A stretch of 64,000 nucleotides of DNA. Origin: Micromonospora sp. NBC_00389 (GTDB lineage Bacteria > Actinomycetota > Actinomycetes > Mycobacteriales > Micromonosporaceae). The DNA lies in NCBI RefSeq assembly GCF_036059255.1, contig NZ_CP107947.1, positions 2,480,001 to 2,544,000 of the forward strand, written 5' to 3'. The notes beneath the pieces were generated by a model, which was not told the DNA's origin, did not search any database, and worked only from the letters and a program-made list of their open reading frames with translations. How positions within the stretch are numbered: the stretch's first letter is position 1; each line of letters starts with the position of its first letter. Of the stretch, positions 27,956 through 41,748 are shown one piece after another. A program made the position numbers and the translations under genes.

Positions 27956-29044
27956 CTACAGGGCGAGCGCGGCGCTGGCCGGGCTGCCGGCGGGCGGGGG
28001 GAGCAGGGCCGAGCCGATGCCCTCGGCGGCCAGGGCGATGCGCAGCCGGTGCAGGTCGGCGCCGAAGCGGACCAGGTCCATTGGGTCGACCGGGGCCGGT
28101 GGTGAACCGAGCACCAGGGCGGTGGCGCCGGCCGGCCAGCCGGGCACCGCGGCGATCAGACCGGCCCGTACCTCCGCCTCGTCGACCAGGGTGAAGACCG
28201 TGCCGGGGGCGACCACCCCGGCGACCGCGTCGATCGCTCGCCGGGCGGCGGCCGGGTCGGCCGGCGTGGCGCCGGGCGCGTCGGCCAGGGTGGCGGCGTC
28301 GGCCAGCCCTGCGGCCCGGGCCTCGGCGGTGCCGAGCGAGAACAGATCCTGGGCGGCGTCGCGGACCAGCGCGCGCGCGCCAACGGAGTCGTCCGGGCGG
28401 GTGGCGGAGAGGTAGCCGCGCACCACCGCGACCGGGACCTGGTCGCACTTGCCCTTGATCAGCTCGCCGGCACCCGCCAGCTCGTCCACCACGGCCATCT
28501 GGGTCAGTTGCAGCTCGTTGCCGTACGGGTCCACCTCGCCCCGGTGATCGCGGATGGCCGGCATTCCGGCCACCCCGAGCGCCACGTCGGTCAGCCCGTT
28601 GCGCCAGGGGCGGCCCATGGTGTCGGTGATGATCACGGCGAGGTCCAGGTCGTAGCGCTCCTTCAGCGCGGCGCGCAGCGCCCGGGCCGAGGCGTCCGGG
28701 TCCACCGGCAGCAGGACCAACCGGGTCTTGTCCACGTTCGACGCGTCGATCCCGGCGGAGGCCATCACGAAGCCGTGGTGGGTCTGCACGATCCGGGTCG
28801 GCCCCCGGCTGGCCACCACCCGGGCGGTCTCCCCGGCCAGCACCTCGTCCCGCGCGGTGAGCCGTTCGGGCCCGTCCGCCGGGACGTCGACCAGCCGGCC
28901 CTCGGCCTTGGAGACGATCTTGCTGGTGACCACCAGCACGTCGCCGTCGCGCAGCCAGGGCGCGGCGTTGGCGATCAACGCGGCCAGGTCGTCGCCCTCG
29001 GTCACGTGGCCGATGCCCAGCACCGGCAGGATCTCCAACCTCAC
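27956..29044 (-). CDS. fbiB: Coenzyme F420-0:L-glutamate ligase FbiB with short C-terminal domain
   Basis: A 362-residue protein. Residues 1 to about 240 are a CofE-type ligase (RLEILPVLGIGHVTEGDDLA, LVVTSKIVSKAEGR, VIITDTMGRPWRNG, YGNELQLTQMAVVDELA), which adds glutamates to F420-0 using GTP. In mycobacterial FbiB a nitroreductase-like FMN domain of about 195 residues follows and reduces dehydro-F420-0. Here only about 120 residues follow, with a weak nitroreductase-like stretch (RFGADLHRLRIALAAEGIGSALLPP). The GTG start overlaps the fbiA stop (GTGA, 29041-29044), so the two genes are translationally coupled. Confidence 0.9.
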   Translation of the reverse strand: MRLEILPVLGIGHVTEGDDLAALIANAAPWLRDGDVLVVTSKIVSKAEGRLVDVPADGPERLTARDEVLAGETARVVASRGPTRIVQTHHGFVMASAGIDASNVDKTRLVLLPVDPDASARALRAALKERYDLDLAVIITDTMGRPWRNGLTDVALGVAGMPAIRDHRGEVDPYGNELQLTQMAVVDELAGAGELIKGKCDQVPVAVVRGYLSATRPDDSVGARALVRDAAQDLFSLGTAEARAAGLADAATLADAPGATPADPAAARRAIDAVAGVVAPGTVFTLVDEAEVRAGLIAAVPGWPAGATALVLGSPPAPVDPMDLVRFGADLHRLRIALAAEGIGSALLPPPAGSPASAALAL

Positions 29045-29988
29045 GACAACTCCACCGCGGCGCGGACCATCGCCGCCGTCGCCGCATCGTCGGTCATCCG
29101 CAACGGCACCGCGCGGACCGTCACCTCCGGCACCAGCGTGCCCGCGTCCTGCTCGTCCACGAGCCAGCCGTCCAGCAGCCCACCGGCCGTTCGGCCTCCG
29201 TAGAGCCGGCCCACGCCGGCCGCGCTGCACTCGACACCGAGAACGGCGAGGCAGCGGTCGGCCATCCCCCGGACCGGCGCACCGCCGATGATCGGCGAGA
29301 CGCCCACCACCCGGGCGGGCCCGTCGGCCACCGCCTCGCGCAGGCCCGGCACGGCCAGCACCGGTGCGACGCTCACCACCGGGTTGCTCGGCGCGATCAG
29401 CACCAGATCCGCCGTGCCGATCGCGTCCAGCACCCCCGGCGCCGGCTTCGCCGTCTCCGCGCCGACGAAGATGAAGCGGTGGGTGGGGATGTCGGCCCGG
29501 TACCGCACCCACCACTCCTGGAAGTGGATCGCCTGCTGGCCCTGGTCGCCGTCGACCACAGCATGCGTCTCCAGGCGGTCGTCGGTCGCCGGCAGCAGGC
29601 GTACGCCCGGCTCCCAGCGGGTCGCCAGTGCCTCCGTGACCGCGTGCAGCGGGTAGCCGGCGTTGAGCATGGTGCTGCGTACCAGGTGGGTGGCGATGTC
29701 CTTGTCGCCGAGGCCGAACCAGGTCGGCTCCGCCCCGTACGCGGCCAGCTCCTCCTTGACCGTCCAGGTCTCCCCGGCTCGGCCCCAGCCCCGCTCGGGG
29801 TCGGCGCCGCCGCCGAGGGTGTACATGACGCTGTCCAGGTCGGGACAGATCTTCAACCCGTGCAGCCACAGGTCGTCGCCGACGTTGACCACGGCGGTCA
29901 CCTCGGCGCCGACCTCGCGGGCGTACGCCCGGACGCCGAGCAGAAACCGGGCGCCGCCGATGCCGCCGGCCAGAACCACGATGCGCAT
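29041..29988 (-). CDS. fbiA: 2-phospho-L-lactate/PEP transferase FbiA (CofD)
   Basis: A 315-residue enzyme that transfers the phospho(enol)lactyl/pyruvyl moiety to Fo, giving (dehydro-)F420-0. The hallmarks are MRIVVLAGGIGGARFLLGV (glycine-rich N-terminus), VNVGDDLWLHGLKICPDLDSVMYTL, FGLGDKDIATHLVR, and APSNPVVSVAPVLAVPGLREA. I favoured the ATG at 29988 because GAGG lies 9 nt upstream; an ATG at 29997 is the alternative. It is first in an operon with fbiB. A TAGAGT -10 box at 30050-30045 abuts an IS607-family insertion. Confidence 0.95.
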   Translation of the reverse strand: MRIVVLAGGIGGARFLLGVRAYAREVGAEVTAVVNVGDDLWLHGLKICPDLDSVMYTLGGGADPERGWGRAGETWTVKEELAAYGAEPTWFGLGDKDIATHLVRSTMLNAGYPLHAVTEALATRWEPGVRLLPATDDRLETHAVVDGDQGQQAIHFQEWWVRYRADIPTHRFIFVGAETAKPAPGVLDAIGTADLVLIAPSNPVVSVAPVLAVPGLREAVADGPARVVGVSPIIGGAPVRGMADRCLAVLGVECSAAGVGRLYGGRTAGGLLDGWLVDEQDAGTLVPEVTVRAVPLRMTDDAATAAMVRAAVELS

Positions 29989-30044
29989 GTCGACCATCCT
30001 CGCGCACGTGACGCCTCCGGTCCGCTGGCGGCCCGGGAGCAGTG

Positions 30045-30052
30045 ACTCTAGG
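30045..30052. promoter_or_regulatory. fbiA -10 box and predicted left junction of the IS607 element
   Basis: On the minus strand TAGAGT (30050-30045) is a good -10 for fbiA with a leader of about 50 nt. Immediately to its right, GG at 30051-30052 is the predicted left crossover dinucleotide of the insertion. The native -35 region of fbiA would therefore have been displaced and replaced by element DNA. Confidence 0.45.
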
Positions 30053-30090
30053 GTTGATTTCTTGACTGGAAGTGGCTACAAGTGGGTGTA

Positions 30091-30312
30091 ATGAGCAGCG
30101 TTTACCGGATCGGGGGAGTTCGCAAACCGGGTGGGGCGGTCGACGTCGACCATCCGGCGGTGGGAGGCGGAAGGCAAGATCGCCGTCCGTTCCGGCAGGA
30201 GCTGGTGCAGGACCTACTGGCGATCGTGCACACCTTCTCCTGCCGCCTGTATGGACTACGCCGCTACGAGAAGCAGCTCACGTCAGTGGACCTGACCGAG
30301 GACCCGGCGTGA
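30091..30312 (+). pseudogene. IS607-family TnpA serine recombinase, frameshifted and internally deleted
   Basis: The ATG at 30091 starts MSSVYRIG, the usual IS607 TnpA N-terminus. An extra G in the G5 run at 30112-30116 shifts the frame; the MerR-like helix-turn-helix (EFANRVGRSTSTIRRWEAEG) continues in the next frame. After about residue 35 the whole catalytic resolvase domain is missing, including the active-site serine. The sequence resumes at the family C-terminus QELVQDLLAIVHTFSCRLYG, back in the ATG frame, and stops at 30312. It cannot catalyse transposition. The remnant length is 74 codons against about 190-200 for an intact TnpA. Confidence 0.8.
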
Positions 30313-31715
30313 AGACGACCCGGATCGCCTACTCGCACCGGCTCAACGCTGGCAAGTACGCCGCGCTCGTTGAGCAGGCTCGGCGGCTGGGGCGGGTGCG
30401 CTCCGAGGTGTGGCAGCGCTACGCCTCGGTTGGCGGTGCTCGGCTCACCGACCGGCAGGTCCGCGACGGCTGGCTGGCCGACGGCACCCACCGCCAGTTC
30501 GGGGTGTTGGCCAACGCGTGGAAGGAGACCGTCCGCGACGCGATGGCCGACATCACGGCGAACTTCGAGGCCGCGAAGGTGCCGGTGCGCAGGGCCATCC
30601 GACGCCACACCAGCGACCCTGCCCAGCGTAGGCGGCTGTTCGGTCTGCTCAAAGCTGATCGGTGGGCCGAGGACCCGTATCTGTCGCGGCTGATGCGCTC
30701 GCGCTGGCGGCGCGGGCACAACCGCACCCGCGACCAGATCGTGGTGCGCGCCGACCAGCACAACACGCGCGTCGACGCGCGTGGGCGGTTGTGGCTGGCC
30801 GTACCCGGCCTCGTGCGACGTCAGCTGGTCCGCATCCCGCTGAACACCACCTTCGTCCCAACGGGCACCTTGCGGCTGATCCTGCGCGGCGACCGGGTGG
30901 AGATCCACTACCAGATCGACGCCGCCATGATGAAGACCTCGCAGCGGCCGTGCGGTGAGGCGACAATCGGCGTGGACAAGGGCTACACGGAGGCGCTGAC
31001 CGACTCCGACGGCAACTACCACGGCGAAGGTCTCGGCCACCTGCTGACCACCGAGTCCGACCGCCTCAAGGAACGCAACCGCCGCCGTGCGAAGGTGCGG
31101 TCGGTCGCCAACACCGCCGCCCTGCGTGGCAACCACGCCAAAGCTGACCGGATTGCCCGCAACAACCTGGGCGCGATCAAGCGTGACCGGCAGGCCGGCC
31201 GTCACCAGGCGCGGGTGCGCACGGAGATCTTCACCGCCGTGCACCGGGTGGTCGACACCGCCGCCATCGTGGTGGCCGAAGACCTGACGAAGACGTTCGC
31301 CGGGCGTAAGCAGTTCGGCAGGAACACCAACCGGCGTCTCGCCGCGTGGACCAAAGGGGTCACCGCCGAGGCACTGACGAACGTGTCGGAGCGCAGAGGT
31401 TCTGCGCTCGTGCACGTCAACGCCGCCTACACCTCACAAGTCTGTCACCGCTGCGGCGCTCTCGGGCACCGCAGCGGGGACCGACTTCACTGCACCTCGT
31501 GCGGGGTGGTGTGGCAGGCCGACGTGAACGCCGCGATCAACGTCCTGCGACGACATGGTGATCCCGACATCACCCTGCACACCCCGCACCACGTGGTGAA
31601 GCAGATCGTGCAGGCGCGGGCCGATCGCCACCGGAGCAGACTGCCGCTCCCGGACTCCAGCCCGGCCCGCCAGGCGGAGAGCGAATCATCCGAAGTGCTC
31701 AGCAATGAGCAATGA
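30309..31715 (+). CDS. tnpB: TnpB RNA-guided nuclease, IS607 type, catalytic residues intact
   Basis: A 468-residue TnpB. RuvC acidic residues are present at D223 (GVDKGYTEAL), E324 (VAEDLTKTF) and D405 (QADVNAAINV). The zinc finger is C379-x2-C382...C395-x2-C398. TnpB proteins are omega-RNA-guided endonucleases that cut at a target-adjacent motif and favour retention of their element. The GTG start overlaps the tnpA remnant stop (GTGA). In known systems the guide RNA comes from the tnpB 3' end and the element's right end, here about 31600-31732. With tnpA destroyed the element cannot move by itself, yet tnpB shows no stop or frameshift. Confidence 0.88.
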   Translation: MKTTRIAYSHRLNAGKYAALVEQARRLGRVRSEVWQRYASVGGARLTDRQVRDGWLADGTHRQFGVLANAWKETVRDAMADITANFEAAKVPVRRAIRRHTSDPAQRRRLFGLLKADRWAEDPYLSRLMRSRWRRGHNRTRDQIVVRADQHNTRVDARGRLWLAVPGLVRRQLVRIPLNTTFVPTGTLRLILRGDRVEIHYQIDAAMMKTSQRPCGEATIGVDKGYTEALTDSDGNYHGEGLGHLLTTESDRLKERNRRRAKVRSVANTAALRGNHAKADRIARNNLGAIKRDRQAGRHQARVRTEIFTAVHRVVDTAAIVVAEDLTKTFAGRKQFGRNTNRRLAAWTKGVTAEALTNVSERRGSALVHVNAAYTSQVCHRCGALGHRSGDRLHCTSCGVVWQADVNAAINVLRRHGDPDITLHTPHHVVKQIVQARADRHRSRLPLPDSSPARQAESESSEVLSNEQ

Positions 31716-31728
31716 CAAGGAAGCAGAC

Positions 31729-31734
31729 TAGGCT
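31729..31734 (+). promoter_or_regulatory. -10 box TAGGCT rebuilt at the IS607 right junction
   Basis: TAGGCT is made of TA from the element's right end and GGCT from the target. Transcription would start near 31741, upstream of the GTG at 31774 with its GAGGGGGAG ribosome-binding site. Confidence 0.5.
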
Positions 31735-31773
31735 CACGTGCGCCCTGTCCGTCCATGCCCCGAGGGGGAGTTC

Positions 31774-32706
31774 GTGACCAGCCCCGCCGAGCCCGCGTCC
31801 ACCGACGCGACGCAGGCCCGCCAGCTGACCAAGCCACTACGGGAACTGGGTGCGCTCGCGCTGCTCGGCGCCAACGCGGTGTTCCTCTTCGTGGGCCTGC
31901 TGCGGCTGCTCATCCCGAGCGACTTCAGCGACTTCACCGACCGTTCGGGCAGCGCCTCTTTCACGTTCATCGGCTTCGAGGCGGCGGTCCTGCCGCTGCT
32001 GGCCGTGCTGCTGGCCACCCACATCTCGCCGGTGCTGCCGAAGGCGAAGCTGATCACGCAGGTGGCCCTCGGTGAGTACGCGTTCAGCGCGCTGCTCGGC
32101 ACGCTGACCATGCTGATCTGGATGGTGGGTCGGCTGGCCGAGGCCGAGGTGCTCGACGTGCTGCTCGGCGTACTCACCCGCTTCGCCTGGCTGATGATCT
32201 TCGCGGTCGCCGCCTGGGTGGTCTACACGATCTGGCGGAAGCTGTACTACGTGCCCCGGCCGAAGCCGCAGCCGGGCGTCTACGGCCAGCCCCAGCCGGG
32301 CTGGCCGCAGCAGCAGGGTGGCTGGCCCGCCCCGGGGCAGCCCGGCGGCCAGCCGGCGGGCGGATGGCCGGCCCCCGGCCAGCCCGGCGGCTACCCGCCG
32401 GCGCAGTACCCCGGCCAGTACGGCCAGCCCTCGCCGCCGTTCCAGCCGGCCCCGCAGTCTGCGCCGCCGTTCCCGCAGTCCGCCCCGCCGTTCCCGCAGT
32501 CCGCGCCGCCGGCCAACCCCGCCCCACAGTCCGCGCCGCCGATGCCGGCCGCACCGCCGTTCGGGCAGCCGCCGTCGGCCGACCCGACCCAGGCCATCCC
32601 GCGCCAGTCCGCCGACGCGACCGAGGCCATCGTCCTCCCCGCTGACGTGGACAGCGACCGTACCCAGCGGATCAACCCGGGCGAGCACCCGGAACAGCCG
32701 CGCTGA
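31774..32706 (+). CDS. Four-helix membrane protein with long Pro/Gln/Gly-rich tail
   Basis: A 310-residue protein. The GTG at 31774 follows GAGGGGGAG; a GTG at 31738 lies too close to the promoter. Four hydrophobic helices occupy about residues 20-155 (LGALALLGANAVFLFVGLLRLL, AVLPLLAVLLATHI, FSALLGTLTMLIWMVG, FAWLMIFAVAAWVVYTIW). A low-complexity cytoplasmic tail follows with repeats of GWPAPGQPGG and PPFPQSA and a final TQAIPR...DATEAI...DRTQRI region rich in possible phospho-threonines. Such tails are common in actinobacterial membrane proteins; the function is unknown. Its promoter adjoins the IS607 element. Confidence 0.7.
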   Translation: MTSPAEPASTDATQARQLTKPLRELGALALLGANAVFLFVGLLRLLIPSDFSDFTDRSGSASFTFIGFEAAVLPLLAVLLATHISPVLPKAKLITQVALGEYAFSALLGTLTMLIWMVGRLAEAEVLDVLLGVLTRFAWLMIFAVAAWVVYTIWRKLYYVPRPKPQPGVYGQPQPGWPQQQGGWPAPGQPGGQPAGGWPAPGQPGGYPPAQYPGQYGQPSPPFQPAPQSAPPFPQSAPPFPQSAPPANPAPQSAPPMPAAPPFGQPPSADPTQAIPRQSADATEAIVLPADVDSDRTQRINPGEHPEQPR

Positions 32707-32759
32707 TCAGCCGCGCCGCCCGCGCCTGACCGCGCGGGCCGCGTTGCGCACCAACACCC

Positions 32760-32812
32760 GCACGCCTCCCGTGACCGACCGCGCCCACCGTGGCCGGACG
32801 CGGGAGGCGTGC
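32760..32812 (+). terminator. Long-loop inverted repeat, possible terminator
   Basis: A 12-bp perfect inverted repeat gcacgcctcccg/cgggaggcgtgc (32760-32771, 32801-32812) with a 29-nt loop, followed by cctttccc, between the membrane-protein gene and fbiC. Confidence 0.5.
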
Positions 32813-32862
32813 CCTTTCCCACCCTGCGGGCTGGGACCAGTGGAGCAGCCGGGCGCAGCGCC

Positions 32863-32868
32863 TAGGCT
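32863..32868 (+). promoter_or_regulatory. -10 box TAGGCT of fbiC (leaderless)
   Basis: TAGGCT ends 6 nt before the fbiC ATG at 32875. No ribosome-binding site lies between. Confidence 0.6.
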
Positions 32869-32874
32869 GAGTGG

Positions 32875-35385
32875 ATGGTTGATCGCACCCACTCCGGTCC
32901 GAGCGAGGCGAGTGTGCGGCGGGCCCTGGGCCGGGCCGCGACCGGGCGAGCGCTGGACGTCGACGAGGCGACCGCGCTGCTCTCCGCCCGTGGTGACGCG
33001 CTCGACGAGTTGCTCCGGGTGGCCGGTGGGATCCGCGACGCGGGGCTGCGCGACGCCGGCCGGCCCGGCGTGGTCACGTACTCCAAGAAGGTCTTCATCC
33101 CGCTGACCCGGCTCTGCCGGGACCGCTGCCACTACTGCACGTTCGCCACCGTGCCGCACCGGTTGCCGGCACCGTTCCTGGACCGCGACGAGGTGCTGGC
33201 CATCGCCCGGGCAGGCGCCGCGCAGGGCTGTAAGGAGGCCCTGTTCACCCTCGGTGACCGGCCCGAGGAGCGCTGGCCGGCGGCCCGGACCTGGCTGGAC
33301 GAGCGTGGCTACGACTCCACCCTGGACTACCTGCGCGCCTGCGCGGTCGCGGTGCTGGAGGAGACCGGGCTGCTGCCGCACCTCAACCCCGGGGTGCTGT
33401 CCTGGTCGGAGCTGCAACGGCTCAAGCCGGTCGCGCCGAGCATGGGCATGATGCTGGAGACCACCGCGACCCGGCTCTGGTCCGAGCCGGGCGGCCCGCA
33501 CTTCGGCTCGCCGGACAAGGAACCGGCGGTCCGGCTGCGGGTGCTCGACGACGCCGGCCGGGTCGGGGTGCCGTTCACCACCGGCATCCTGATCGGCATC
33601 GGGGAGACCCAGGCCGAGCGGGTGGACGCACTCTTCGCGATCCGCCGCGCGCACCGGGAGTACGGCCACCTCCAGGAAGTGATCGTGCAGAACTTCCGCG
33701 CCAAGCCGGACACGGCGATGCGCGGCATGCCCGACGCGGAGCTGCACGACCTGGCCGCCACGGTGGCGGTGGCCCGGCTGCTGCTCGGCCCGAAGGCCCG
33801 GATCCAGGCCCCGCCGAACCTCATCGCCGGGGAGTACGGCCTGCTGCTGCGGGCCGGCATCGACGACTGGGGCGGCGTTTCCCCGCTCACCCCGGACCAC
33901 GTCAACCCGGAGCGTCCCTGGCCGCAGATCGAGGAGCTGGCCCGGCACACCGAGCTGGCCGGGTTCACCCTGCGCGAGCGGTTGACCATCTACCCCGAGT
34001 ACGTGCGCGCCGGTGACCCGTGGCTCGACCCGCGGCTGCTGCCGCACGTCAGCGCGCTGGCCGATCCGGCGACCGGGTTGGCGGTCGAGTCGGCCCGGCC
34101 GCAGGGCCGCCCGTGGCAGGAGCCGGAGGAGGTGTTCGGCGGGCGGACCGACCTGCATGCCACCATCGACACCACCGGTCGGACGGACGACCGGCGTGGC
34201 GACTTCGACAGCGTCTACGGGGACTGGGCGGAGGTCGCCACGAAGGTGACCGCCGGGCCGAGCGCCCTCGCCGGCGACCACGACCTGCGGGCCGGGCTGC
34301 GGCTGGCCGCCGACGACCCGGCCGCGCTGCTGGAGCCCCGGCACACCGATGCCGCGCTGGCCCTGTTCGGCGCGGACGGGCCGGCGCTCGACGAGTTGTG
34401 CCGGCTCGCCGACGAGGCGCGTCAGGGTGCGGTCGGCGACGACGTCACGTACGTGGTCAACCGCAACATCAACTTCAGCAACGTCTGCTACGTCGGCTGT
34501 CGGTTCTGTGCCTTCGCTCAGCGCGAGCGGGACGCCGACGCGTACCGGCTCTCCGTCGATCAGGTGGCCGACCGGGCCGAGGAGGCGTGGGCGGCCGGCG
34601 CCAGCGAGGTCTGCCTCCAGGGCGGCATCGACCCGAAGATGCCGGTCACCGGGTACGCCGACATCGTGCGCGCGATCAAGGCCCGGGTGCCGGAGATGCA
34701 CGTGCACGCGTTCTCCCCGATGGAGATCGTCACGGCCGCGGCGAAGGCGGGCGTGCCGGTGCGCGAGTGGCTGACCCAGCTGCGCGAGGCCGGGCTGGAC
34801 ACCATCCCGGGCACCGCCGCGGAGATCCTCGACGACGACGTGCGCTGGGTGTTGACCAAGGGCAAGCTGCCGGCCGCCGCCTGGGTCGACGTGGTCAGCA
34901 CCGCCCACGAGCTGGGCATTCGGTCCAGCTCCACGATGATGTACGGCCACGTCGACCATCCCGGGCAGTGGCTGGCGCACTTCCGGGTGCTGGCCGGTGT
35001 GCAGGACCGCACCGGTGGCTTCACCGAGTTCGTCGCGCTGCCGTTCGTGCACACCAACGCCCCGATCTACCTCGCCGGCATCGCCCGGCCGGGGCCGACC
35101 TGGCGGGAGAACCGGGTGGTGCACGCGATGTCCCGGCTGCTGCTGCACGGCCGGATCGACAACATCCAGTGCTCCTGGGTGAAGCTGGGCGACGAGGGCA
35201 CGGTGGCGATGCTCCGGGGCGGTTGCAACGACCTGGGCGGCACGCTGATGGAGGAGACCATCTCCCGGATGGCCGGCTCGGACAACGGCTCGGCGCGGAC
35301 CGAGGAGCAGTTGCGGGCCATCGCCACGGCGGCCGGTCGCCCGGCGCGCAAGCGCACGACCGCGTACGGTCACGTCCGGCCCTGA
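32875..35385 (+). CDS. fbiC: FO synthase FbiC (fused CofG-CofH)
   Basis: An 836-residue bifunctional radical-SAM enzyme that builds the deazaflavin Fo of coenzyme F420 from tyrosine and a pyrimidine precursor. The CofG half has the cluster motif C81-x3-C85-x2-C88 (CRDRCHYC); the CofH half has C538-x3-C542-x2-C545 (CYVGCRFC). Both halves are complete, with [11 protein letters not shown] and [15 protein letters not shown] segments in CofH. The fused form is typical of actinomycetes. With fbiA and fbiB nearby, the pathway from Fo to polyglutamylated F420 is nearly complete here; only the CofC/FbiD guanylyltransferase is not in the window. Confidence 0.96.
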
Positions 35386-39469: not shown

Positions 39470-39578
39470 TCGGGGCTGAGGGGGCAGGGCGGGGTTGCTA
39501 ACTGCTTGTTGTGGGGTGTCCATGCGTGACTGTTAGGTGCTTTTAGTGTTGTTTGATCCTTGTTGTGATTCTGACGGA

Positions 39579-40139
39579 ATGGGCAAGGCGCAAGGTGTTG
39601 CACCGCGTACTGCGTATCGCTGGTTCCGTGAGGGCACGTTGCCGGTCCCTGCGCGACGGGTGGGGCCGCGCACGATCCTGGTGAACATCGAAGCGAACAC
39701 CGTGCCGGAAACGGTCGGTGGTGTCGGGTTGTATGCCCGTGTTTCCTCGCATGGCCAGAAGGACGATCTGGAGCGGCAGACCGCCCGCTTGGCCCGGTGG
39801 GCAGCGCAGGCTGGTCACCGTGTCGTCCGTGTGGAGTCGGAGATCGGCTCCGGGATGAACGGTGGCCGTTCCAAGGCCCGTCGGCTGCTGGCCGACCCGC
39901 AGGTGAGCATCGTGGTGGTGGAGCACAAGGACCGGCTGGGCCGGATGAATGTGGAGCTGGTCGAAGCCAGGCTCGCCGCCCACGGCCGTCGTCTCGTCGT
40001 CTTGGACGAAGGTGAAGTCGAAGACGACTTGGTGCGGGACATGGTGGAGATACTGACCTCGTTCTGCGCCCGCTTGTATGGCCGCCGGTCTGCGAAGAAC
40101 CGGGCGAAGGCCGCATTGGAGGCCGCGGCGCGTGCCTGA
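39579..40139 (+). CDS. IS607-family TnpA serine recombinase, N-terminal frameshift
   Basis: A 186-residue frame from the ATG at 39579. A MerR-like HTH comes first (KAQGVAPRTAYRWFREGTLPVPARR), then the resolvase catalytic domain with LYARVSSHGQKDDLERQ (active-site serine 56 or 57) and DRLGR, and the C-terminal CARLYGRRSAKNRA. The natural family start appears to be the GTG at 39565 (VILTEWA-KAQGV), but one A is missing in gggcaagg (39581-39588). The first seven or so residues are therefore in another frame. The protein could still be made from the internal ATG. It shares 8 nt with the tnpB start. Confidence 0.8.
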   Translation: MGKAQGVAPRTAYRWFREGTLPVPARRVGPRTILVNIEANTVPETVGGVGLYARVSSHGQKDDLERQTARLARWAAQAGHRVVRVESEIGSGMNGGRSKARRLLADPQVSIVVVEHKDRLGRMNVELVEARLAAHGRRLVVLDEGEVEDDLVRDMVEILTSFCARLYGRRSAKNRAKAALEAAARA

Positions 40140-41748
40140 CCTGCGTGATATCGCCCGGCCGTTCGTCGCCGACCCCGCCATGGGTGTGTGCATACGCGAC
40201 CGGCTCAAGGGCCTCACTGCGGAGGACGACAAGATCCTGCGTCTGGTCGGTGAACACCTGGGATCGCTCGCCTCCCGGGACCTGGCGCAGCGTTGCCGCG
40301 ACGGCCTCGAGCATTCCACCGACACCTGGGCACACCGGAAGCGGGAGCTCACCGGCGAATCGTCGTCCCGCTGGGCCGGGAGCATCACCAAGGCCACGCA
40401 CGACCAGTGGGGCCTGTCCCGCCGCGCTCAGTGGGCTCACATCGAGTCTCTGCGGGCTGGTATCCGCATGCTGCGGCACCGCCTGTCCCTGCCGATCGGC
40501 GAGAAAGGCAGCCGGGGCAAGCCCGGCGGCTACCGGTGCGAGCACGAGTGGTTCCACAAGTCCCGCCGCCTGGCACACCTGGAGCGCCAGCGCGAGCGCG
40601 TACTGGCCGAGCGCGACGCCGGTCAGGTCCGCGTAGTGCGCGGCGGCCAAAAGCTGCTCAAGACGCGGCACAACCTCGCCGCTGCCAATCTGACCGAGGA
40701 CCAGTGGCGGGAACGCTGGGAGGCGCAGCGCTGGTTCCTCGGTGCCGATGGCGAGTCCGGGAAGCGGTACGGCAACGAAACGATCCGCGTCACGCCCGAG
40801 GGCGAAGTATCGATCAAGCTGCCCGCGCCGCTGACGCACCTGGCGAACGCCAAGCACGGCCGGTATGTGCTGGCCGCCCGTGTCAGCTTCCCGCACCGGG
40901 GCGTGCAGTGGCGCGACCGGATCGAGGTCAACCGGGCGGTCGCCTACCGCATCCATCTGGATGTGACCAAGAGCCGCTGGTACCTCGATGCGTCCTGGCA
41001 GCGCAAGGATCTCCCGATCGTGCCGATCCAGACCCTGCGCTCGGGCGAGATCATCGGCGTGGACATGAACGCCGACCACCTCGCTGCCTGGCGACTCGAC
41101 ATCCACGGCAACCCGATCGGCCAGCCCCGCACCTTCGAGTACCAGTTGCGCGGGACAGCCGAGCGGCGCGACGCCCAGATCCGGCACGCCATCACCCGGC
41201 TGCTGCACTGGGCCAAGCACACCGGCTGCCGAGCCATCGCCATCGAAGACCTGGACTTCACCGATTCCAAGACCCGGGAGAAGCACGGCCGTAAGCGCCG
41301 CTTCCGGCAACTCATCAACGGCATGCCCACCGGCAAGCTGCGTGCCCGTCTGCTGGCGATGACCGCCGAGGCGGACATCAGCATCATCGCCGTGGACCCG
41401 GCCTACACCAGCATGTGGGGCGCCGAGCACTGGCAAAAGCCCCTGACCACCAAGAAACGCGCCACCACCCGCCACCAGACGGCCAGCGTGGCGATCGCAC
41501 GACGCGCCCTCGGACACCGGATCAGGCGACGGACGGCACCGCCCCGCCAGCACCAGAGCGACGCTGGCGGGCATCGGACCGCCCAGGCCCGACCCGGTGG
41601 ACGGGGACGTGAGGGAACCCGCCCTCCTCAGACCGGACCACGGACACGATCCGTGCCGCCGACCGCGGGAGCGAACGCGGGGGACCAGCCCATCCAAGAC
41701 CGTTCGGGATGGACGCAGTGTCAGTTTGATCTTCATGGTCACTTCTGA
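40132..41748 (+). CDS. TnpB-related protein without zinc finger (IS607 partner)
   Basis: A 538-residue protein starting at a GTG overlapping the tnpA end by 8 nt. The RuvC-I aspartate is D311 (GVDMNADHLAAW) and RuvC-II has E372 (AIEDLDF). After VDPAYTSMWGAEHWQ, where usual TnpBs have CxxC...CxxC and DxNAAxN, this protein has TRHQTASVAIARRALGHR (His448 region) and no cysteine pairs. It belongs to the group usually annotated 'TnpB-related accessory protein' in actinomycetes. The third metal ligand must be rearranged or absent. A basic tail of about 85 residues follows. Confidence 0.8.
   Translation: MPDLRDIARPFVADPAMGVCIRDRLKGLTAEDDKILRLVGEHLGSLASRDLAQRCRDGLEHSTDTWAHRKRELTGESSSRWAGSITKATHDQWGLSRRAQWAHIESLRAGIRMLRHRLSLPIGEKGSRGKPGGYRCEHEWFHKSRRLAHLERQRERVLAERDAGQVRVVRGGQKLLKTRHNLAAANLTEDQWRERWEAQRWFLGADGESGKRYGNETIRVTPEGEVSIKLPAPLTHLANAKHGRYVLAARVSFPHRGVQWRDRIEVNRAVAYRIHLDVTKSRWYLDASWQRKDLPIVPIQTLRSGEIIGVDMNADHLAAWRLDIHGNPIGQPRTFEYQLRGTAERRDAQIRHAITRLLHWAKHTGCRAIAIEDLDFTDSKTREKHGRKRRFRQLINGMPTGKLRARLLAMTAEADISIIAVDPAYTSMWGAEHWQKPLTTKKRATTRHQTASVAIARRALGHRIRRRTAPPRQHQSDAGGHRTAQARPGGRGREGTRPPQTGPRTRSVPPTAGANAGDQPIQDRSGWTQCQFDLHGHF

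Follow-up and report, generated by a model that had tools for sequence, protein, structure and literature searches.

Our main reading, to which we assign a probability of roughly 0.78, is that a non-autonomous IS607-type element entered the conserved promoter region between fbiA and a divergent membrane-protein gene at the AG of GGGAG^ACTAGG (the caret marks the junction), and that there were at least two independent entries at this same base. The element lies in what we call the window (the whole 64,000-nt stretch of Micromonospora DNA that was analyzed), within an F420 locus at 27956-35385. In this locus, fbiB and an intact fbiA lie to the left of the element on the minus strand, and the membrane-protein gene and fbiC lie to its right on the plus strand (Table 1). 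Pfam and NCBIfam searches returned no match for the membrane-protein gene, and its start was chosen from GAGGGGGAG and from a non-conserved frame upstream. The element itself is of a known type, and of greater interest is that a conserved promoter was entered repeatedly at a single base. An initial annotation of this DNA had recognized an IS607-type element between the two divergent genes, interrupting a compact intergenic region with two -10-like boxes that share a TA, and had proposed that element DNA replaced the DNA upstream of fbiA. The place, the kind of element, and the kind of promoter were all borne out, whereas the junctions and the surviving box were wrong.

Table 1. Features of the F420 locus and the inserted element (window coordinates)
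Feature	Position	Strand	Evidence
fbiB / CofE (coenzyme F420-0:L-glutamate ligase), downstream of fbiA	27956..29044	-	NCBIfam TIGR01916 and PRK13294 above cut-off
fbiA / CofD, intact; possible start 29988	29041..29997	-	Pfam PF01933, E 1.1e-61; TIGR01819, E 6.1e-116
Host GGGAG, the target and a presumed TAM; dinucleotide common to both junctions at 30038-30039 (AG)	30035..30039	+	Empty alleles, 2-bp overlap
IS607-type element, 1,687 bp	30040..31726	+	Split against empty allele; L034 copy; right end common to 28 other copies
TAGAGT, element DNA, -10-like box now nearest fbiA	30045..30050	-	Same letters in L034
tnpA remnants in different frames: HTH part 30110-30199, C-terminal part 30175-30300	30110..30300	+	Translated matches to L043 TnpA
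tnpB, 468 aa, open	30309..31715	+	NF040570 guided_TnpB, 110 bits (cut-off 100); PF07282; motif positions
Element right end AGGAAGCAG, final AG is the shared dinucleotide, Shine-Dalgarno-like	31718..31726	+	GGAAGCAG in 29/29 right-end rows
TAGTCT, native fbiA -10-like box, last two letters from element end	31725..31730	-	38/39 empty alleles
Presumed TnpB guide stretch, host DNA right of element	31727..31746	+	Inferred from published IS607 TnpBs; conserved in relatives
TAGGCT, host -10-like box of rightward gene, untouched	31729..31734	+	32/39 empty alleles
Rightward gene; hydrophobic stretches suggest a membrane protein by eye	31774..32706	+	ORF list
fbiC / CofGH	32875..35385	+	NCBIfam PRK09234, 1489 bits

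The element and its deleted transposase gene

The element is IS607-like and non-autonomous: its tnpA carries a deletion, and its tnpB, which probably encodes an RNA-guided nuclease, is open. An intact relative (L043) encodes a 205-aa TnpA with MerR and Resolvase domains, and the window's remnants match residues 7-36 and 160-201 of this protein, the middle of which is missing. The nearest copy (L034, in genome G056; 92% identity over its full length of 1,687 bp) lies at another locus and carries an identical tnpA deletion, so the deleted form has probably moved. It presumably did so with TnpA supplied in trans, in which case this serine recombinase would have exchanged a circular element at the AG. 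TnpA-like genes elsewhere in the genome are at best 39% identical, and the 16 TnpA-like genome matches include the two remnants and some matches to the HTH only.

Within tnpB, we take D223, E324, and D405 to be candidate RuvC residues and the CxxC..CxxC pattern to be a zinc ribbon. A PDB search with the TnpB sequence returned nine distant chains of Cas12/TnpB types (best E = 2.6e-6), and PADLOC reported only Cas12-type and Csx1-labelled matches, as expected of a TnpB. The final 220 nt of the element are well conserved across 24 aligned copies, and covariation at the right end is weak (53 predicted pairs, seven with both sides changed, covariation term -0.26). An Rfam search gave nothing above threshold (two sub-threshold microRNA matches were taken as chance) and no RAGATH-18-type reRNA at E up to 1. 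The element may carry a diverged reRNA, which we place at its right end on the assumption that it resembles the rest of its family.

Related loci were seen as well. A second IS607-type locus in the window (39537-41748) encodes a TnpA-like 200-aa serine recombinase (Pfam Resolvase, E 1.2e-20), overlapped by a 556-aa ORF that is TnpB-like by eye and has zero Pfam matches. The window's genome holds a second copy of the element (L002 1420-2956; G000:C1, ~7.06 Mb) that is 85% identical and has lost most of tnpA. Short copies with only ~50 bp from the left end to tnpB, L050 in G138 and L054 in G039, occupy corresponding sites in two species and apparently lack tnpA.

The empty site and the ends of the element

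To locate the empty site, we used a naturally occurring empty allele (L005:1797-2203) as the query against 160 genomes of the genus. The fbiA/membrane-gene junction was uninterrupted in 152 genomes, interrupted in five (G000, which is the window's own, G049, G085, G100, and G138), and without a usable match in three (G028, G059, and G115). A single match spanned the junction in 148 of the 160; four genomes whose matches fell below the cut (G006, G067, G071, and G140) had their loci retrieved, were all empty, and are counted among the 152. G112 is also counted there, with ATGCAG instead of CGGGAG and zero net extra length, a difference that may be plain divergence rather than an insertion. A family-wide search covered 250 genomes, part of them from the same genus, and found a match in 243, with the junction spanned in some other genera too.

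The commonest empty allele reads GGGAG^ACTAGGCTCACG. The initial annotation had predicted gactctaGGctcacgtg and proposed aligning uninterrupted relatives; that alignment refutes the prediction. In all 29 nearest retrieved relatives (L004-L032), the intergenic region is uninterrupted and reads ...AG^ACTAGGCTCACG. Directly 5' of the junction, 18 of them have GGGAG, 2 have AGGAG, and the remaining 9 have different five-letter sequences. Against the window, query positions 1-201 of the empty allele end at 30039 and positions 200-405 begin at 31725. Because the two halves overlap by AG alone, we set the element's boundaries as in Table 1, with exchange at this AG. The true entry point is therefore a few bases to the left of the GG at which the initial annotation had placed it.

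Other copies were used to define the ends. Searching the 160 genomes with the element gave some match in 115, many of them short and at chance level. Thirty loci were obtained, and these together with L002 made up the 31 examined, 29 of which provided a right-end row. Similarity stops at GGAAGCAG in 29/29 rows (28 besides the window), and beyond it the right flanks of the 28 other copies diverge. Alignment fixed the position of nine left ends, eight of which directly follow GGAG; L002 is the exception. We rely on this 8/9 as the less biased count, since another left-end matrix contains GGAG and is partly circular. The left-end letters gactcta are element DNA, being the same in L034 at its own locus and matched less exactly in L002, and actaGG at the right junction is host DNA. 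The joined flanks of L034 (GAGAGGAG^AGTCACATG) were found exactly in two empty alleles (L109 and L111) of the eight loci retrieved; L110 and L112 each have a single mismatch next to the junction, and the pattern located no match in the remaining four.

The -10-like boxes and the DNA upstream of fbiA

The native region contains overlapping divergent -10-like boxes, TAGGCT and TAGTCT, with a common TA. Of 39 empty alleles, 32 have TAGGCT and 7 have TACGCT as the plus-strand box, and on the minus strand 38 carry TAGTCT and 1 carries TAGTCG; the pattern used to locate these alleles presupposes ACTA[GC]GCTCA and failed in none. A sigma-70 consensus scan of the empty and occupied alleles yielded zero promoters or consensus pairs, and the argument for promoter function therefore comes from conservation, which suggests that the block acts as a divergent promoter in both directions.

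The conserved block ACTAGGCT is host DNA in empty relatives and is kept by the rightward gene after insertion. fbiA is separated from its native TAGTCT box and from all DNA upstream of that box. The insertion split this box, which now lies ~1.7 kb away, where the terminal AG of the element keeps it readable at the right junction. Bordering fbiA instead is element DNA, in which TAGAGT sits 7 bp further from the gene than the native box did. Transcription of fbiA would start from TAGAGT or from within the element, and its expression may have changed. The exact empty sites define a lesion that deprives an F420 gene of its native promoter-like box and leaves the common block with its neighbor.

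We also considered whether an fbiA -10 box had been rebuilt by selection at this site, and rejected the idea since TAGAGT is already present in L034 at another locus. No TANNNT is present in the left ends that G049, G085, and G138 have at this site. It occurs in 3 of 18 left ends compared to 0.8% of random window 24-mers, which is unusual, but it was brought by the element. As a separate observation, an inverted pair, GCGCACGTGA at 30002-30011 and TCACGTGCGC at 31734-31743, flanks the native promoter in near relatives and now has the element between its halves; it is possibly a regulator site.

Insertions at the same base in other species

A copy or remnant of the element occurs at the same host base in four other species. 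G138 has a ~1.65-kb copy with an open TnpB-type frame between GGGGAG and ACTACG, and remnants of ~329 bp (G049), ~326 bp (G085), and ~66 bp (G100) are joined to the same base, with a single different letter at the joint in G100. In a tree of the host flanks (45 rows), the other inserted genomes fall in a 15-row clade (100/100) and the window falls outside it; the rows nearest to the window (G119, G125, G027, and G105) are all empty. The insertion label requires five changes on this tree, at least four of them forced, with G112 doubtfully counted as an insertion. Shuffling the label 500 times gave as few changes in 116 cases, which means that clustering of the label is not clear.

Target preference and Shine-Dalgarno cores

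It is possible, although we consider it unlikely, that the insertion in the window is a decayed and inactive one that occupies one GGAG among a great many and leaves regulation unaffected, the common site being due to coincidence or mere integration preference. The broken tnpA fits such an account, as do the intact TAGGCT box and fbiA, and GGAG is common (639 in the 64-kb window, both strands). However, tnpB is open with candidate active-site motifs, and the native upstream DNA of fbiA is gone. Moreover, a genome would contain ~78,000 GGAGs by proportion (a rough estimate), making two entries at the same base unlikely under uniform choice.

Across copies, the right end tends to lie just before a gene. 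An ATG or GTG 3-12 nt past the right end and opening at least 100 codons was found at 23 of 30 distinct sites outside the fbiA site, compared to 100 of 630 window GGAGs (Fisher p 2e-12) and 1,221 of 10,000 random positions, with start calls made mechanically in the controls as well. This count is an uncorrected 24/32 minus the row of the fbiA site (GTG 31738) and L074, an unmerged copy at the same site. Under a looser start rule, the counts were 35 of 43 copies vs. 148 of 639 window GGAGs and 295 of 816 in fbiA loci. Statistically, then, these copies usually separate a Shine-Dalgarno core from its start codon. The family targets GGAG, usually as the Shine-Dalgarno core of a gene, and the right end AGGAAGCAG could replace the sequence lost there. 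We read the fbiA site as an exception, because the frame opened by GTG 31738 is non-conserved, even though this codon passes the mechanical rule. By eye, L002 sits just before the start of a kinase-like gene, and L036 (G021) precedes the same gene.

The preference for GGAG fits the AGGAG TAM given for IS607 TnpBs in PMC11061315, whose main text lacks the word stem "ribosom." In the open-access literature, we found neither a link between IS607 or TnpB and Shine-Dalgarno sequences or ribosome binding sites nor any account of IS607 in Micromonospora. Repeated entry at one base, combined with the Shine-Dalgarno preference, offers a natural system for asking whether TnpB guides steer the persistence of IS607 elements, and whether the end of a transposon can take the place of a ribosome-binding site.

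The presumed TnpB guide and possible homing

By analogy with published IS607 TnpBs, a guide beginning ACTAGGCTCACG..., copied from the right flank, would recognize the empty allele beside GGGAG and direct its cutting, which would favor retention of the element. A more far-reaching proposal, of which we are rather doubtful, is that the fbiA promoter is a recurrent homing site for an IS607 TnpB whose guide, ACTAGGCTCACGTGCG, matches other species, and whose TAM is a Shine-Dalgarno core with the replacement AGGAAG at the right end. Since the divergent fbiA promoter is conserved, the guide would match the empty alleles of other species beside GGAG, and through this match RNA-guided cleavage would favor both re-entry at the same base and retention. 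Homing endonucleases favor conserved sites, and the proposal extends this to TnpB elements at the fbiA promoter. If it is true, a TAM that is a Shine-Dalgarno core, together with the AGGAAG end, would let the lineage sit directly before genes.

The first 16 letters of the presumed guide stretch match exactly in 23 of the 29 near relatives, and the 10 second-clade alleles examined differ from it by two to five letters. GGAG at the junction is absent in 9 of the 29 near relatives and in all 10 second-clade alleles, a lack that would restrict the alleles open to recognition by this TnpB. The mismatches and missing GGAG in the second clade make homing by this guide between the two clades unlikely; within a clade, it is possible.

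One entry or several

We consider it improbable that a single old insertion in an ancestor of both clades was precisely lost many times, in place of repeated entry. Remnants of 66-329 bp do show decay in place, many losses are compatible with any tree, and element trees would lose clarity if copies in the same genome had undergone gene conversion. However, all 29 retrieved near relatives of the window are empty, and the element nearest to the window's lies at another locus. In the tnpB tree, which has 35 rows, this nearest element, L034, forms a pair (100/100) with the window's inside an eight-row group, and G138 falls among the other 27 rows, across a 100/100 split from the window's group. 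In the tree built from right ends (38 rows and 287 columns, with one long branch), four changes are required for the four fbiA-site elements, and at least three of these are forced. Two independent entries at this base are thus well supported by the trees. More than two are likely, although the same pattern could arise by gene conversion within a genome.

Far less credible still, and already refuted by the empty alleles, is the model of the initial annotation, in which entry at a common GG was followed by rebuilding of TAGGCT with a TA from the right end and TAGAGT was the surviving host box: the quoted letters exist at the junctions and TAGG stands in both flanks, but empty alleles have ACTAGGCT and no CTCTAGG, in 28 other copies the right end extends no further than GCAG, and L034, which lies elsewhere, carries TAGAGT too.

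Three loci carry sequences at the fbiA site that may be footprints of excision: L082 (G095; GGAGCAGACTAGG), L077 (G112; CATGCAGACTAGG), and L087 (G046; GGAGCGACTAGG). These are ambiguous, because empty relatives are only one or a few letters away; in the clade of G095 and G046, the empty alleles read GGAGAGACTA. Typical left ends (L039, L042, and L043) read GGAGCAGCGACTAG and the fbiA target reads GGGAGACTAG, a resemblance that might add to the hotspot.

Comparison with known systems

Like members of the IS607 family (IS607, IS1535, and ISC1926, with a serine TnpA and a TnpB), the element has tnpA sequence upstream of a tnpB that belongs to the guided-TnpB family (NF040570 above cut-off). A TnpA combining a MerR-type HTH with a resolvase domain is encoded by the intact relative L043; the window copy has two remnants of the gene. 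Insertion was likewise simple, with an AG dinucleotide common to both ends, no longer target duplication, and, by eye, no terminal inverted repeats, as in the family. The window copy differs in its deleted tnpA. The exchange dinucleotide also differs, being AG inside GGAG here and GG in IS607, according to PMC6188088 and PMC10711439. We regard this as a difference between sub-lineages; anyone who takes GG to define the family would have to call the element IS607-like and not IS607-family.

PMC11061315 gives the TAM of IS607 TnpBs as AGGAG in 18 of 22 strains and GAGGG in 4 of 22, with these AG-rich TAMs adjoining the left end. In the RAGATH-18-associated TnpBs described there (ISFba1), AGGAG stands by the left end, as GGAG does here, and RuvC and zinc-ribbon motifs are found in both, here by sequence. 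Those TnpBs come mostly from Firmicutes, unlike this element, for which Rfam shows no RAGATH-18 RNA and the TAM and guide are predicted from sequence. As for the promoter, two-way transcription in our locus is suggested by conservation within the genus, and PMC12825309 describes the same arrangement in the bidirectional (pseudo-symmetrical) promoters of Escherichia coli, where divergent -10-like hexamers also overlap with a common TA.
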